Assembly (NCBI RefSeq): GCF_000518205.1
Contig: NZ_JADD01000014.1
Span: forward strand, 1-64,000
DNA length: 64,000 nt
Direction of reading: 5' to 3'
Source of the DNA: Hutsoniella sourekii ATCC 700629
GTDB lineage: Bacteria > Bacillota > Bacilli > Lactobacillales > Aerococcaceae
The notes under the pieces: model-generated
Databases searched by the model: none
What the model was told of the DNA's origin: nothing
What the model saw: the letters and a program-made list of their open reading frames with translations, nothing else
In this document: positions 13,034-21,705 of the stretch, piece by piece
Numbering within the stretch: the first letter of the stretch is position 1
How the letters are laid out: the number at the start of each line of letters is the position of its first letter
Made by a program: the position numbers and the translations under genes

Positions 13034-13738
13034 TTATCCTCCTAGGTAAGCTTTCTGAACTTCATCACTTGTTAACAGTTCCTGCCCAGAGCCAGTTAGC
13101 GAAATGTTTCCAGTCTCTAATACATAACCACGGTCAGCAATCTGCAAAGCTTGCCGTGCATTTTGCTCGATCAGTAGGATGGTGGTTCCTTGTTTTTGGA
13201 TATCGACAATGATATTAAAGATCTCTTTGATAAAGATAGGTGCAAGCCCCATCGACGGCTCATCAAGCAAGAGTAACTTAGGCTTGGACATTAATGCCCG
13301 ACCCATTGCCAACATTTGTTGTTCTCCCCCTGATAAAGTCGCTGCATCTTGTCCAAGTCTTTCCTTTAGAATCGGGAATCGTTGATAAATCTTCTCAAGA
13401 TCAGCCTGAATACCATCTTTATCCTTTCTCAAAAAGGCTCCCATTTCCAAATTTTCTTTAACGGTTAAACCGCTGAATACATGACGTCCTTCTGGCACTT
13501 GGCATAGACCACGTTCAACAATTTTCTTAGGCGATAAGGATAATAAATCCTCGCCCTCATATACTATTGTACCACCTGCTGGCTTAACAAGCCCAGAAAT
13601 TGTTCTAAGAATAGTTGTTTTTCCAGCCCCATTGGCTCCTATCAGAGAGACAATCTCCCCTTGGTTTACTTCAAAGCTGACATCATGGACGGCACTAATC
13701 ATTCCGTAATTAACCTTTAGATTATCTACCTTTAACAT
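13034..13738 (-). CDS. livF: Branched-chain amino acid ABC transporter, ATP-binding protein LivF
   Basis: This is one of the two ATPases of the high-affinity branched-chain amino acid importer, 234 residues. Motifs are Walker A GANGAGKTT (36-44), signature LSGGEQQMLAMGRAL, and Walker B LLLLDEPSMGL followed by the switch His region. The short, LivG-independent C terminus (QELLTSDEVQKAYLGG) marks it as LivF rather than LivG. It overlaps livG by one base (TAATG), which indicates translational coupling. Confidence 0.95.
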   Translation of the reverse strand: MLKVDNLKVNYGMISAVHDVSFEVNQGEIVSLIGANGAGKTTILRTISGLVKPAGGTIVYEGEDLLSLSPKKIVERGLCQVPEGRHVFSGLTVKENLEMGAFLRKDKDGIQADLEKIYQRFPILKERLGQDAATLSGGEQQMLAMGRALMSKPKLLLLDEPSMGLAPIFIKEIFNIIVDIQKQGTTILLIEQNARQALQIADRGYVLETGNISLTGSGQELLTSDEVQKAYLGG

Positions 13739-14517
13739 TAGTCCTCGCCTCCTAAATAAGCTCTGATAACAGCTTCATTTTGTTGAATTTCTTCTGGGGT
13801 ACCTTGAGCAATCAAGCGACCATACTCTAAGACATAGATTCGTTGACAAATATCCATCACTAGAGACATGTCGTGTTCAATCAGGACAATAGTCAAGTCA
13901 AATTGTTGACGAATTTGTTCAATCAGATTAGTTAGGTCTGCTGTCTCATTCGGGTTCATCCCGGCAGCTGGCTCGTCTAAGAAGAGAATCTTAGGCTGAG
14001 TAGCCAAAGCACGTACAATTTCCAACCGTCTTTGCTGACCATATGCTAAGTTTTTAGCCTTATCTTCAGCAAAGGGACCTAAATCGAATATCTCAAGTAA
14101 TTCAAGGGCTTTTTTACGCATCTTTTCTTCAGTCTCATAGTATGCGTTACTTCTAATTAGACTAGAAAACAAGGAGTTCCCCTCTTCGCGGTCCATGGCA
14201 ACCATAACGTTCTCGATGACCGTCATATTATCAAAGAGGCGAATATTTTGGAAGGTACGAGCAATTCCTAAACCGTTAATAATATCCGGCCGTTTACCTT
14301 GAATTTCCTGGAGACCACCGGAACCATCCCCAAGTGATACGGTTCCTTCACTTGGTGTGTAGACACCTGTCAGAAGGTTAAAGAAAGTGGTCTTACCTGC
14401 CCCATTGGGCCCAATCAAACCAATAAGCTCGCCTTGTTCTAATTCCATCGATACGTTTGATACGGCAGTGAGCCCGCCAAAGTTCTTTGTTAATTGATCA
14501 ACTTTAAGAATTGTCAT
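13738..14517 (-). CDS. livG: Branched-chain amino acid ABC transporter, ATP-binding protein LivG
   Basis: This is the second ATPase of the importer, 259 residues. Walker A is GPNGAGKTT, the signature is LAYGQQRRLEIVRAL, and Walker B is ILFLDEPAAGMN. The insert around IARTFQNIRLFDNMTVIENVMVAMD and the YLGGED end are typical of LivG. It shares the stop/start sequence TAATG with both livM and livF, a tight coupling expected for subunits made in fixed ratio. Confidence 0.95.
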   Translation of the reverse strand: MTILKVDQLTKNFGGLTAVSNVSMELEQGELIGLIGPNGAGKTTFFNLLTGVYTPSEGTVSLGDGSGGLQEIQGKRPDIINGLGIARTFQNIRLFDNMTVIENVMVAMDREEGNSLFSSLIRSNAYYETEEKMRKKALELLEIFDLGPFAEDKAKNLAYGQQRRLEIVRALATQPKILFLDEPAAGMNPNETADLTNLIEQIRQQFDLTIVLIEHDMSLVMDICQRIYVLEYGRLIAQGTPEEIQQNEAVIRAYLGGED

Positions 14518-15488
14518 TAGGCCACCTCCTGATCCTTGTTTCGATTAAATAACTTGCTAGCTAATTGTCCTACTCGCACTTCCTTGGTACCTAATAGGCC
14601 ACCTGGACGGAAGATCATGATTAAGATTAGGGCAACAGCATAGATTACCATCCGCAATTGACCATAATCCTGTAAGAATAAGTTTAACAAACCTAGCACA
14701 ATTGCTGCGATAAAGCTACCGGTAAAGGAACCAATGCCACCAAATACCACAATAATTAAGACATCAATCGAACGGTTAAATGTATAATCATTCGGTGTGA
14801 CAATACCTAAATAAGTCGCCTGTAAGGCTCCACCAATTGCTGCCGTAATTGAACCTAGCACAAAAGCCGCTACCTTATATTTGGCGGTATGAACACCCAT
14901 GGCTTGTGCTGCAATCTCATTTTGATTAACAGCCATCGTTGCGCGTCCTTGACTGGAATAAACATAATTCAAGATAAAGATAGTTGTCACGACCAGGGCG
15001 ATGAATACATGCCACCAGTCAGTAATAATAGGAATACCTGAAATACCTGCTGGTCCGTTGGTAAGGTCTCTTAAATTATTAATTAAAACACGAATAATCT
15101 CACTAACACCTAGCGTCGCAATGGCCAAGTAATCGCCTTTTAAACGGAGGGTAGGAATACCAACCACTAAAGCTACCACCATTGATACCAGAACACCTAC
15201 GATTAAGCCAACTAATAACCCTTGTTGAGGGTTGGCCATTCTAGTTGTAAAGATAGCTGCTGAATAAGCACCAATAGCGATAAAACCAGCATGTCCCAGC
15301 GAGAATTGGCCAGCTACACCGAGGATTAAATTAAGGCCCACAGCGTAAATGATATTGAGCATAATTGTTACTAAGGTAATTTTGTAGAATGGATTAATAA
15401 TTCCAGCTTCAACCAAACTAAAAATAATCGCAAAAGCAACTAGAATAGAAACTAGCCATGCGATGTTTCTGAAATGAAATCTTTGCAT
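14517..15488 (-). CDS. livM: Branched-chain amino acid ABC transporter permease LivM
   Basis: This membrane subunit of 323 residues has eight or more hydrophobic segments. The conserved AVGLNLILGVAGQFSLGHAGFIAIGAY and the EAA-like loop GIPTLRLKGDYLAIATLGVSEIIRVLINN are characteristic of LivM. The second-half motif DVLIIVVFGGIGSFTGSFIAAIVLG is also present. It lies 9 bp after livH and overlaps livG by one base. A short basic N terminus (MQRFHFRN) precedes the first segment. Confidence 0.95.
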   Translation of the reverse strand: MQRFHFRNIAWLVSILVAFAIIFSLVEAGIINPFYKITLVTIMLNIIYAVGLNLILGVAGQFSLGHAGFIAIGAYSAAIFTTRMANPQQGLLVGLIVGVLVSMVVALVVGIPTLRLKGDYLAIATLGVSEIIRVLINNLRDLTNGPAGISGIPIITDWWHVFIALVVTTIFILNYVYSSQGRATMAVNQNEIAAQAMGVHTAKYKVAAFVLGSITAAIGGALQATYLGIVTPNDYTFNRSIDVLIIVVFGGIGSFTGSFIAAIVLGLLNLFLQDYGQLRMVIYAVALILIMIFRPGGLLGTKEVRVGQLASKLFNRNKDQEVA

Positions 15489-15497
15489 ATTTACCCC

Positions 15498-16376
15498 CTA
15501 CACTTTCTCGCCCGTTTTTTTGCCGAATAAGCCAGAAGGCAATACTAGCAAAATAACAATTAAGAGGCCATAAACGACTGCGTCCTTGTACATGGATCCT
15601 CCCATGAAGGTAACTATTGTTTCAAGGATCCCAATTAAATAGCCCCCAACCATCGCTCCAGGGACACTACCAATACCTCCGACAACAGAAGCAATAAAGG
15701 CCTTCATACCAGGCGCTGTCCCCATAGTTGGCGCAATGGAGTTATAGTATATTCCATATAATATACCGGCTACTCCTGCTAGAGAGGAACCTAGAGCAAA
15801 AGTAAAGGAAATCACTGTGTCTACATTGATTCCCATTAGCTGAGCTGCCTCTTTATCGGTTGATACGGCCCGCATAGCTGTCCCCATCTTGGTCCGTTGC
15901 ACAATCATTTGCAAGACAAACATCATGACAATCGTAATTACAAATACCAGAATTTGCTTGGAATTGATAACTATTCCCATCACTTTGAAAACCTGTGTTT
16001 TGATTGGCGAAGGAAAAGAACGGACTTCCGGCCCTAAGAAGTAGATCATAATATTCTGTAGAAAATAAGAAACCCCAATCGCTGTAATTAATGCAGCAAT
16101 GGGTGTCGAGTTACGCAAAGGCTTGTAGGCAATTCGTTCAATAGCCATACCCAAAACGGCACAAGTCAGCATTGTTAAAGGAAGTGCCAGAAAGATATTT
16201 AGTTCAAGCACTGTAATAAAGTAGTAACCCAAAAAGGCACCCATCATGAAGACATCCCCATGAGCAAAGTTAATTAAACGAATGGTCCCATAAACCATCG
16301 TATAACCCAGTGCAATTAAGGCATAAATACTTCCTAATGCAATACCATTAACAAGTTGCTGGAAAAATAATTGCAT
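15498..16376 (-). CDS. livH: Branched-chain amino acid ABC transporter permease LivH
   Basis: This membrane subunit of 292 residues begins with the classic QQLVNGIALGSIYALIALGYTMVYGTIRLINFAHGD. It also carries the SVVGGIGSVPGAMVGGYLIGILE motif of the family. AAAGGA precedes the ATG. It is separated from the upstream binding-protein gene by 204 bp containing hairpins, so the membrane subunits are probably made at a lower level than the binding protein, as is common for ABC importers. Confidence 0.95.
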   Translation of the reverse strand: MQLFFQQLVNGIALGSIYALIALGYTMVYGTIRLINFAHGDVFMMGAFLGYYFITVLELNIFLALPLTMLTCAVLGMAIERIAYKPLRNSTPIAALITAIGVSYFLQNIMIYFLGPEVRSFPSPIKTQVFKVMGIVINSKQILVFVITIVMMFVLQMIVQRTKMGTAMRAVSTDKEAAQLMGINVDTVISFTFALGSSLAGVAGILYGIYYNSIAPTMGTAPGMKAFIASVVGGIGSVPGAMVGGYLIGILETIVTFMGGSMYKDAVVYGLLIVILLVLPSGLFGKKTGEKV

Positions 16377-16504
16377 ATTAAAAGTCCTTTCTTAAAATTT
16401 AATAAGATAAAAAGATTATAGTATAAATAAAAGCTTAATGCAATGAGAGAAGATAGTGTCTATTTCGGCATCAAAAACCTCATAATATAATTAATACATG
16501 CGAT

Positions 16505-16569
16505 TAGAGAATTTAGAGAACTCTAAAATTAATAGAAGAAACGGCAGGCGCTCCATGCCCACCGTTTCT
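16505..16569 (-). terminator. Hairpins between the binding-protein gene and livH
   Basis: AGAAACGG (16537-16544) and CCGTTTCT (16562-16569) form a stem directly after the binding-protein stop codon, followed on the minus strand by TCTATTAATTTT. A second stem, TTTAGAG-AA-CTCTAAA, follows. The weak T run suggests partial termination or 3' end protection, not a full stop, so livHMGF would still be reached. Confidence 0.6.
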
Positions 16570-16580
16570 AAGGACGCTTG

Positions 16581-17744
16581 TTATTCAGCTGTAACTTCTT
16601 GAGTGGATTCAACTTCCCCGTTGTTTAATTTAAGCATTAGGGCAGATTTAATTGGCGTATTATCTTCTCCCATATCAAAGGTACCAGTAATACCTTCGAA
16701 TCCTTTGGTCTCACTAAGCGCTTGACGAACAGCGTCACGATCTGTTGAACCTGCTCTTTCAACCGCATCAAAGATTAAGTTAGTCGCATCATAGGCTAAG
16801 GCTGCAAATGTATCCGCTTCTTCTCCAAATTCTTCCTTATAATCCTTTAAGAATTGTTGGACTTTTGGATCTTCACTTTCTGGTGAGAAGTGAGTAGTGT
16901 AATAGATATCAGAAGCATTTTGAGGTTCAGCCAATTCTACTAAGGTCTGAGAGTGGTAGCCGTCTCCTCCAACAATAGGTTGAGTAATTCCCATTTCACG
17001 AGCCTGTTTGATCAATAGACCCACTTCGGTGTAGTATCCTGGTACAAATAAGACATCGAAATCTTGTGCCATTAATGATGTTAATACAGCTGAGAAGTCT
17101 GTGTCCCCTGAATTATAAGATTCATTGGCAACAATTTCGCCACCTTTAGCCTTAAATTCTTCCTCAAAAGCCTTAGACATTCCTTGTGCATAGTCGGTGC
17201 CTTGGTCAACGACAAGAGCAGCTTTTTTCGCACCTAATTCTTCAGCCACGTACTTAGCTCCAGCTTTACCTTGATAACGGTCTTCGAAACAAACGCGGAA
17301 TAAATATTCCATCAAATTTCCATTATTGTCTTTAGTTAAATCGTCTACCGTTCCAGCAGGTGATACAGCAGGTACTCCAGCCTTATTGATAACAGCTGCT
17401 TGTGAAAGCACATCTCCTGATGGTGCTGGCCCTACAATGGCAAATACGCCCTCTTCAACTAATCGAGTTGCTACCGATGATGTTTCTGTTAAGTCTGACT
17501 TATTATCATAAGTTACTAATTCAACTTCTTGACCTCCAAGGACACCTCCATCAGCATTTCGTTGTTTTACCGCTAACTCTGTTCCCTTAGACATTGGCGT
17601 TCCGTAAGAAGCGGCCGCCCCGGTTAACTCGTAGTTAGCCCCTAATTTAACAGACTCTTCAGCCATCGCTGAACTAGCAGGTCCAGCTAATGATAATAAT
17701 AAACTTGCTGCGAGTGCTCCTAATTTAACTTTCTTAAAATCCAT
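16581..17744 (-). CDS. Branched-chain amino acid ABC transporter, substrate-binding protein 1
   Basis: This 387-residue extracytoplasmic LivJ-type (Peripla_BP_6) protein begins its mature part with ESVKLGANYELTGAAASYG. It has a signal peptide (MDFKKVKLGALAASLLLSLAGPASSAMA) with a type I cleavage site after AMA. There is no lipobox cysteine, although SLAGPASS looks like a lipobox with Pro where Cys would be. Gram-positive binding proteins are normally lipoproteins, so how it stays at the cell surface is unclear. AGGAGG stands just before the ATG. It is first in the transporter operon and lies behind an isoleucine-codon attenuator. About 60 percent by eye resembles the second binding protein at 19242-20405. 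Confidence 0.93.
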   Translation of the reverse strand: MDFKKVKLGALAASLLLSLAGPASSAMAEESVKLGANYELTGAAASYGTPMSKGTELAVKQRNADGGVLGGQEVELVTYDNKSDLTETSSVATRLVEEGVFAIVGPAPSGDVLSQAAVINKAGVPAVSPAGTVDDLTKDNNGNLMEYLFRVCFEDRYQGKAGAKYVAEELGAKKAALVVDQGTDYAQGMSKAFEEEFKAKGGEIVANESYNSGDTDFSAVLTSLMAQDFDVLFVPGYYTEVGLLIKQAREMGITQPIVGGDGYHSQTLVELAEPQNASDIYYTTHFSPESEDPKVQQFLKDYKEEFGEEADTFAALAYDATNLIFDAVERAGSTDRDAVRQALSETKGFEGITGTFDMGEDNTPIKSALMLKLNNGEVESTQEVTAE

Positions 17745-17771
17745 GATAAATCCTCCTAAAATATTATTAAC

Positions 17772-17806
17772 AAAAGGAAAACGCTAGATTCATCCAAATC
17801 TAGCGT
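17772..17806 (-). terminator. Terminator of the liv leader attenuator
   Basis: On the minus strand ACGCTAGATT (17806-17797) pairs with AATCTAGCGT (17790-17781) around TGGATG, followed by TTTTCCTTTT. It lies between the leader peptide and the binding-protein gene. Its 5' arm can instead pair with AATCTAGCG at 17846-17838. Confidence 0.88.
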
Positions 17807-17936
17807 CGTTAATAAACGGTATCGGTAATAATTAACCCGCTAGATTATGGTGATCTATGCGGGCAATGCAAATACTTAGCACCTCATAGATACAAACATG
17901 ACGTCCGTGTTTGTACCTAATTCGTAAGCACAAACA

Positions 17937-17993
17937 CTATCTAATGATAATGCTAATAATAATGGCTTCACTTAAACGAGATGAGCTAAACAT
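17937..17993 (-). CDS. Leader peptide of the liv operon, isoleucine-rich
   Basis: This 18-codon frame encodes MFSSSRLSEAIIISIIIR, with six Ile codons in a stretch of seven (ATT ATT ATT AGC ATT ATC ATT), then AGA and TAG. GGAGGG (18006-18001) lies 7 nt before the ATG, and a near-consensus promoter lies directly upstream. The s1 arm of the first downstream stem begins at the last base of the stop codon. This is the classical layout of an amino-acid attenuator leader. Ile starvation is the expected signal, which fits an isoleucine/leucine/valine importer. Confidence 0.85.
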   Translation of the reverse strand: MFSSSRLSEAIIISIIIR

Positions 17994-18212
17994 TTTAATT
18001 CCCTCCAATTTGTAAAACAATCATAACGTGAATTCTAATTTATGTCAATAGTTTTTTAATTAAAAAATCATTTTCCTTAAAGTTTTTTATCCTGTTACAT
18101 CTTGTCCATTGACTGTTTTTCACATTTTATTTGATTCTAGCTGATTTTCCTCTTGCAAGATAATGATAAAAATGATTAGATTATTAAAAGATAGAAAGGT
18201 AAGGTAGCTCAG

Positions 18213-19241: not shown

Positions 19242-20405
19242 TTATTCAGCTGATACATTTTCAACAGAGGCAATTTCTCCATTTTGTAATTCAATCATAA
19301 CAGCTGGCTTAACTGGGTTATGTTCTTCGTCAATAGCAAAGGTTCCCGTTACTCCTTCAAAAGCTTCCGTAGAAGCAATTGCCTCAGTGATGGCCTTTGT
19401 ATCTGTAGAACCTGCACGCTCAATCGCATCAATAATTAGCATAGCTGCATCATAACCTAGGGCATGCCAAGTTTCTCCAGGCTTACCATATTCTGCCTCG
19501 AAAGCTTTCAAGAATTCCTGAACAACTGGCTCTTCACTTTCCGTTGAGAAGTGGTCAGTATAGTAAACATTTGATGCATTTTCAGCTCCAGCTAATTCAA
19601 CAAGCACTTCACTTGAGAATCCATCTGGTCCAACAATCGGTTGCTCAATTCCCATTTCACGTGCTTGCTTGATGATTAATCCAGCTTCTGTATAGTAGGC
19701 TGGAATATAAATAACATCAAAATCTTGAGCTTGGATCGTCGTTAACATAGCTGAGTAGTCGGTATCACCCGTTTGGAATGATTCTTCCGTTACAATGTTG
19801 CCACCGCGAGCCTTAAATTCCTCATTGAAATTATCAGCTAGACCGCGTGAATAATCAGAACCTTGGTCCACCAGTACCACTGCATTCTTAGCCTTTAAGT
19901 TATCAGCAGCGAAGACGGCACCCGCACGACCTTGGTAAGAGTTCTTGAAGCAGACGCGGAAGATATATTCTAAGGCTGAGCCATCATCTGCTAGTGTCAC
20001 ATCATCACCAGTCGCCGCTGGTAGGACGTTAGGAATATTCGCCTCAGTTAAGATTGGGATTTGTGCTTCAGATGGTCCCGTTAATGCTGGTCCAACCACA
20101 CCGACTACGCCGTCAGAGACGAGTCTTGAAGCCACAGAAGCTGCTTCCGTTACATCTGACTTATTATCATAGCTGGCAATTTCTAATTGCTTACCATCCA
20201 AAACGCCGCCTTTTTCATTTGTTTGCTTAACCGCTAACTCAAGGCCTTCTAGCATCTTCTGTCCATAAGACGCTGCGTCTCCAGATAATTCATAGTTAGC
20301 ACCAATCTTGACTGTCTCCTCAGCAAAAGCCGCCCCAGCTGGAGCCGTGACCGCGCCTGCTACCAGCAGAGCCAAAGCCCCCTTCATTATCTTCTTAATA
20401 TCCAT
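19242..20405 (-). CDS. Branched-chain amino acid ABC transporter, substrate-binding protein 2
   Basis: This second LivJ-type binding protein is 387 residues, the same length as binding protein 1, and collinear with it (ETVKIGANYELSGDAASYG at the mature start). The signal peptide MDIKKIMKGALALLVAGAVTAPAGAAFA also lacks a lipobox Cys and should be cut after AFA by signal peptidase I. It is monocistronic, with no permease next to it, so it probably delivers to the same LivHMGF core with a different affinity or preference. Its promoter region has no leader peptide; a 27-bp palindrome overlaps the expected -35 region instead, so the two paralogues seem to be controlled differently. Confidence 0.92.
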   Translation of the reverse strand: MDIKKIMKGALALLVAGAVTAPAGAAFAEETVKIGANYELSGDAASYGQKMLEGLELAVKQTNEKGGVLDGKQLEIASYDNKSDVTEAASVASRLVSDGVVGVVGPALTGPSEAQIPILTEANIPNVLPAATGDDVTLADDGSALEYIFRVCFKNSYQGRAGAVFAADNLKAKNAVVLVDQGSDYSRGLADNFNEEFKARGGNIVTEESFQTGDTDYSAMLTTIQAQDFDVIYIPAYYTEAGLIIKQAREMGIEQPIVGPDGFSSEVLVELAGAENASNVYYTDHFSTESEEPVVQEFLKAFEAEYGKPGETWHALGYDAAMLIIDAIERAGSTDTKAITEAIASTEAFEGVTGTFAIDEEHNPVKPAVMIELQNGEIASVENVSAE

Positions 20406-21554: not shown

Positions 21555-21632
21555 ATGATGCTAATGACTACGATTAATCAAGTTGAAGTGCTTAATGCTT
21601 CATTTTCAGCTTCTTTATTATTATTAATCTAG
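21555..21632 (+). CDS. Leader peptide of the leuABCD operon, leucine-rich
   Basis: This 25-codon frame begins MMLMTTINQVEVLNA and ends SASLLLLI, with four consecutive TTA Leu codons (21615-21626) just before ATC and TAG. AAAGGAG (21542-21548) is 6 nt before the ATG. The reading frame is followed directly by a 13-bp stem that starts at the stop codon, and then by a terminator. The layout matches attenuators of leucine operons such as E. coli leuL, with which no sequence homology is claimed. Leucine starvation is the expected signal. Confidence 0.82.
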   Translation: MMLMTTINQVEVLNASFSASLLLLI

Positions 21633-21705
21633 GGCTTAAATTTAATAATTTAAGCCCTATTCAGCATTCACCTTCATCCAATTGGATAGTGAATGCTTTT
21701 CTTTT
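21630..21705 (+). terminator. Attenuator hairpins before leuA
   Basis: A stem TAGGGCTTAAATT / AATTTAAGCCCTA (21630-21659) begins at the leader stop codon. The terminator AGCATTCAC (21663-21671) / GTGAATGCT (21689-21697) follows, with TTTTCTTTT. A segment in the leader frame (21584-21599, containing AATGCT) could pair with the terminator 5' arm and its flank over about 13 bp with bulges. Which pairing acts as antiterminator is not settled by eye. Confidence 0.78.

Follow-up and report, generated by a model that had tools for sequence, protein, structure and literature searches.

Leader and operon at the locus

We analyzed a window of 64,000 nucleotides from the genome of Hutsoniella sourekii ATCC 700629, in which the open reading frames (ORFs) of livK, livH, livM, livG, and livF form an operon on the minus strand (13034-17744). 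The first gene of the operon after its leader is livK (17744-16581). LivK matched the branched-chain amino acid binding-protein family with an E value of 2e-52, yet fell under the curated cutoff; livH, livM, livG, and livF were assigned from their own sequences. All leader features described below are likewise on the minus strand.

A sigma-70-type promoter (18020-18048), with TTGACA at 18048-18043 and TATGAT at 18025-18020 separated by a 17-bp spacer, matches 11 of 12 consensus bases and is the best such site in the region; the transcription start of the leader is inferred from sequence alone. The promoter is followed by the ribosome-binding site GGAGGG (18001-18006), recognized by its sequence, and by a leader ORF (17937-17993), MFSSSRLSEAIIISIIIR and a stop codon, supported by both its sequence and its orthologues. 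The putative sensor codons (17943-17963), designated from the codons themselves and from the kinetic model described below, are six Ile codons (17963-17955 and 17951-17943) flanking one Ser codon (AGC). Orthologous leaders preceding livK encode IISIIIR, IITSIIR, IISIVIR, and others. Across the family of loci assembled below, a promoter matching at least 10 of 12 consensus bases lies 5' of the leader ATG at 147 of 173 loci, versus 4 of 173 shuffled sequences, and nearly all loci passed a Shine-Dalgarno filter. One criterion for an attenuator is thus satisfied: the transcript begins with a short, translated-looking ORF served by a ribosome-binding site.

Eight RNA segments, numbered 0 to 7, extend from the leader codons to the terminator. 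Segment 0 (17938-17956) lies within the codons and the stop and consists of TTAGCA (17956-17951) and TAGATA (17943-17938), complementary to TGCTAA (17881-17876) and TATCTA (17892-17887), respectively, so that it pairs with 17892-17876. Segment 1 (17930-17937) pairs with segment 2 (17907-17914), which may pair with either 1 or 3. Segment 3 (17876-17897), comprising GTTTGTATCTATG (17897-17885) and a 3' extension to TGCTAA, has segments 0, 2, and 4 as alternative partners. Segment 4 (17853-17863) pairs with 3 or 5, segment 5 (about 17836-17846) with 4 or 6, and segment 6 (17797-17805), the 5' arm of the terminator, with 5 or 7. Segment 7, the 3' terminator arm, occupies 17772-17790 together with the U-rich tract TTTTCCTTTT (17781-17772) that follows the terminator stem (17807-17780); it is supported by its sequence and by co-variation of 6:7.

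A livK paralogue adjoining the operon (19242-20405, minus strand) is without a leader of this kind.

A conserved RNA family

An Rfam scan at gathering cutoffs found no match in the window. A permissive search, however, aligned 17773-17955 to the full length of RF02863, sRNA_2410 (model positions 1-196 of 196, 37.4 bits, E value of about 1e-4), below the 61-bit gathering score of that model. RF02863 derives from a 195-nt transcript of Enterococcus faecium detected by RNA-seq and by Northern blotting, with two bands (PMC5593968), and is filed in Rfam as an sRNA ("Enterococcus sRNA_2410"), unlike our reading of the window RNA as an attenuator. Its P1 helix (equivalent to 0:3) and the hairpins 1:2 and 4:5 all align, and the long-range helix of its consensus corresponds to the pairing of the last leader codons in the window with TATCTA and TGCTAA. 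At the highest-scoring RF02863 matches, a trpX-like gene is preceded by a Phe/Tyr leader that ends in YFSYFR; the window leader carries Ile codons instead. We also built a covariance model, R1, from nine leaders of the Ile type; it likewise recovered RF02863 loci, which supports homology of the two RNAs.

In the window's own family, R1 matched 38 of 76 genomes, representing 20 of 21 genera, a recurrence of the leader architecture far beyond chance; in the order it matched 109 of 295. The RF02863 model matched 131 of 246 genomes when the order was searched. In wider samples it matched 27 of 300 genomes from the class, five of which lie outside the order, and 3 of 299 from the phylum, all within the order; each of these RF02863 searches matched 0 of 14 control genomes. 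Conserved Ile leaders, stems, and terminators precede livK in other genera, and all Ile-type loci inspected fall in the window's family. A tree of the RNA, with too few columns for origins of the Ile type to be counted, showed eight changes, of which well-supported branches force only one. A search for relatives in genome contigs returned distant livK homologues only. No earlier description of the RNA family was found in the literature searched, a scope that excluded most subscription journals.

Co-variation of the alternative helices

Folding of the 269-nt leader was more stable than that of dinucleotide shuffles (z of -4.8, 0 of 200), as was folding of 17929-17772 (z of -4.2). The segment 3 region is the best-conserved stretch of the alignment. 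Co-variation was assessed in 123 distinct loci (16 branched chain and 107 aromatic, as classed below) by a swapped-partner test: duplex energies of segment pairs taken from a single locus were set against those of pairs made by exchanging segments among loci of the same class in 2,000 permutations. For 0:3, 3:4, 4:5, 5:6, and 6:7, own pairs were superior to swapped pairs in both classes (0 of 2,000 permutations). For 1:2, only the aromatic set gave significant co-variation, and 2:3 is nearly invariant across loci, leaving no variation for a swapped-partner test. Related genomes in the locus set are not independent samples; relatedness alone is nevertheless disfavored as the cause, because five control pairings showed no comparable signal in the same test. 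A second criterion for an attenuator, a mutually exclusive terminator and antiterminator with co-variation support, is therefore met. Sequence and comparison together show that the element consists of a six-Ile leader peptide, eight segments with mutually exclusive pairings, most of whose helices co-vary, and a terminator.

Folding and kinetic models of the switch

Equilibrium folding up to the end of the terminator, repeated by ribosome position, favored the terminator at nearly every position and did not separate the ribosome states; the decision must therefore be kinetic. Before segment 5 is synthesized, 3:4 reached a probability of at least 0.95 only with the ribosomal A site on codons 10 to 17, while upstream ribosome positions favored 0:3 and the stop codon favored 2:3. 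In a co-transcriptional kinetic model restricted to the named helices, predicted read-through was 0.97 to 0.98 with the A site at codons 11 to 16, partial at codon 17, and 0.00 without a ribosome or with one at the early codons, the Arg codon, or the stop codon. Varying the assumed ribosome edge from 10 to 15 nt shifted this pattern by about one codon. Omission of 2:3 caused the stop-codon state to read through, omission of 1:2 abolished read-through, and omission of 0:3 let the untranslated RNA read through, each failure being the one that the logic predicts.

When helices were defined automatically, loci preceding ilvE (L082) and ilvB (L114) reproduced the clean pattern; the window locus leaked (0.32 at Arg and 0.45 at stop), another livK locus (L072) switched partly (0.3 to 0.56), and an aromatic locus (L039) never read through. 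A run on a further locus (L121) was excluded because segment 2 had been mislocated. We regard the logic of the switch as well supported and the numbers as indicative only.

These results bear on an original prediction that had proposed an isoleucine attenuator with a seven-segment chain of stems. The promoter, ribosome-binding site, 18-codon frame, stem chain, and terminator before the liv operon held on inspection of the sequence, and the seven segments were confirmed to within a few bases. A search of relatives found both the Ile codons and covarying stems to be conserved. Support for the proposal that stalling at Ile codons shifts the chain from the terminator 6:7 to the antiterminator 5:6 comes, in the absence of expression data, from conservation, co-variation, the codon-gene match described below, and the kinetic folding model. 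The start of the chain required amendment. Segment 0, within the leader codons, was missed; the seven-segment chain alone reads through without a ribosome, and the model terminates once 0:3 is added.

RNA constraint on the leader codons

A simpler attenuator, with seven segments, no segment 0, and read-through of the untranslated RNA, is a rival explanation, and in its favor the chain of segments 1 to 7 alone still yielded the stall and stop outcomes in the kinetic model. Against it stand the strong co-variation of 0:3 in each class and the retention of the codons that contribute to segment 0. Among Ser codons within the last six leader codons, 157 of 158 are AGC, and at 157 of 173 loci the leader's final sense codon is AGA, as the 0:3 pairing demands. 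At L099 the frame ends inside a conserved TAGATAG, so that the Arg codon is lost and the RNA sequence is retained. We consider the simpler design unlikely and favor the eight-segment switch.

The leader peptides of L099, L135, and L138 end without the usual Arg codon, and a copy preceding a gene for 3-deoxy-D-arabino-heptulosonate 7-phosphate (DAHP) synthase (L167) keeps the RNA core without an obvious leader start codon.

Sensor codons correspond to the downstream genes

The leader ORF and first downstream gene were retrieved for 175 loci, of which 173 were classified; a mis-cut locus (L085) and L167, lacking a start codon, were excluded from the tallies. Representative downstream proteins were named by NCBIfam. 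Branched-chain codons precede livK (11 loci), ilvE (5), ilvA (3), ilvB (2), and one oligopeptide-binding protein gene. Phe/Tyr codons precede genes for trpX-like binding proteins (109), aroE (32), and genes for other amino acid binding proteins (5), with single cases before genes for DAHP synthase, an ABC permease, an aminotransferase, and D-lactate dehydrogenase and before aroC. Where the gene assignment is clear, all 21 loci with branched-chain codons precede branched-chain genes and all 145 with aromatic codons precede aromatic genes. This split (21/0 versus 0/145) is without exception; its Fisher P value of 5e-27 is overstated by the relatedness of the genomes. A codon run for the amino acid of the downstream genes, a further criterion for an attenuator, is thus present. 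A finer fit is also seen, as in the leader LLISVIR before ilvB. The same correspondence appears within the window's genome, where the three R1 matches are the livK leader and two Phe/Tyr leaders before trpX-like genes, and outside the order, where by-eye assignment placed a Phe-only leader, FFFSDFR, before a pheA-like (prephenate dehydratase-like) gene and YYYFGWFS before a transketolase-like gene.

The two Phe/Tyr copies in the window's genome are L121 (G000:C12) and L134 (G000:C32), both before genes for trpX-like binding proteins. The loci outside the order (L220 and L222 to L228) also precede DAHP synthase, trpX-like (YYFSYFR), and symporter-like (WYSYRR) genes.

Two alternative identities for the RNA can be weighed against these data. 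The Rfam name of RF02863 suggests a trans-acting small RNA, the terminated transcript acting on other mRNAs, and the E. faecium transcript, detected by Northern blotting and homologous to the window element, is consistent with this. However, the inspected copies lie directly 5' of amino acid genes, have codons fitting those genes, and retain antiterminator pairings, and a terminated leader would itself resemble an sRNA. We hold a trans-acting role to be very improbable. A ligand-binding riboswitch or T-box with an incidental ORF might account for the strongly conserved core around segments 1 to 3. Yet the T-box model had no match in the window at its gathering cutoff and none around the leader up to an E value of 5, Rfam scans found no riboswitch match at the leader or in the window, the conservation of segment 3 is accounted for by its three partners, and the codons vary with the gene while the core stays constant. 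We hold this explanation, too, to be very improbable.

Proposed mechanism and relation to known systems

With those alternatives set aside, and CodY left out of consideration, our preferred reading, held with high confidence although no data on expression, ribosome footprints, or RNA 3' ends stand behind it, is that the leader is a ribosome-mediated transcription attenuator, with charged tRNA-Ile as the signal sensed and livKHMGF as the operon controlled. The model predicts three states. With no ribosome, or with a ribosome near the start, 0:3 and 1:2 would form, leading to 4:5, 6:7, and termination. A ribosome that stalls at the Ile codons would cover segment 0 but not segment 1, leading to 1:2, 3:4, 5:6, and read-through. 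A ribosome finishing the peptide would cover both, leading to 2:3, 4:5, 6:7, and termination. Since only the stalled state would read through, the switch would need both translation and a shortage of isoleucine. Operation of the switch in the cell, including a rise in read-through with uncharged tRNA, is inferred.

On the same reading, and with the same high confidence, the window RNA is one member of a family spread across the Bacilli, whose common scaffold bears either Ile/Leu/Val or Phe/Tyr codons to fit the controlled gene. A bolder version, which we think probable, is that this is an unrecognized Bacilli-wide family of eight-segment attenuators that read through only if a ribosome starts the leader and then stalls, that the family has switched targets between aromatic and branched-chain amino acids in step with the genes under its control, and that sRNA_2410 is the terminated transcript.

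In enterobacterial his, trp, and ilv leaders, stalling at cognate codons selects between alternative stems; the his leader has a six-segment chain, and trp also terminates without translation. The window RNA differs from these in that three partners compete for segment 3, one of which lies inside the codons, and its family differs in placing different sensor codons on one conserved scaffold. Among Firmicutes, the Staphylococcus aureus ilv-leu attenuator (PMC5794164) likewise combines an Ile/Leu-codon leader peptide with a terminator in the control of branched-chain amino acids, but it serves a biosynthesis operon and is reported to respond to Leu. The His leader peptides before hisS and hisZ in bacilli (PMC2965389) are also examples of Firmicute leader-peptide attenuation, with histidine codons and other genes.

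These precedents qualify the original view that Firmicutes mostly use mechanisms other than attenuation, and the six-segment his leader shows that chains longer than the usual design were already known. The contention that attenuation of an uptake operon is unusual failed within this RNA family, in which trpX-like, livK, and other binding-protein genes account for approximately 125 of the 173 classified loci. What appears new is the single conserved scaffold with exchangeable sensor codons, a segment 3 with three partners, and the probable reassignment of sRNA_2410.

In this interpretation, leader-peptide attenuation is a widespread means of fitting uptake as well as synthesis genes to the supply of amino acids among Lactobacillales and certain other Bacilli, for which T-boxes and CodY are usually assumed, and a family classed in Rfam as a small RNA gains a new explanation. 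With sensor codons naturally exchanged on a single scaffold, the logic lends itself to testing by codon exchange, and the leader peptide would predict the amino acid handled by a transporter.

Other attenuator-like leaders

A Leu-codon leader, MMLMTTINQVEVLNASFSASLLLLI and a stop codon (21555-21632, plus strand), precedes leuA with a stem and intrinsic terminator at about 21662-21705 (plus strand); it is not matched by the R1 model and represents a second, different attenuator. Val-codon leaders, with the peptides VNVVLVYVKYL and NVVVVVVL, precede two further livK genes, at G000:C8 (L231, L003) and G035:C11 (L230); their RNA is a shorter relative, seemingly without the 1:2 hairpin, and a pattern search for this variant returned two real cases only, in the window's genome and in G035. 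Ile/Val-rich leaders without the conserved core (KSIIIII and NNVVIIIAK) precede livK at L026 and L030, and these could be independent attenuators.
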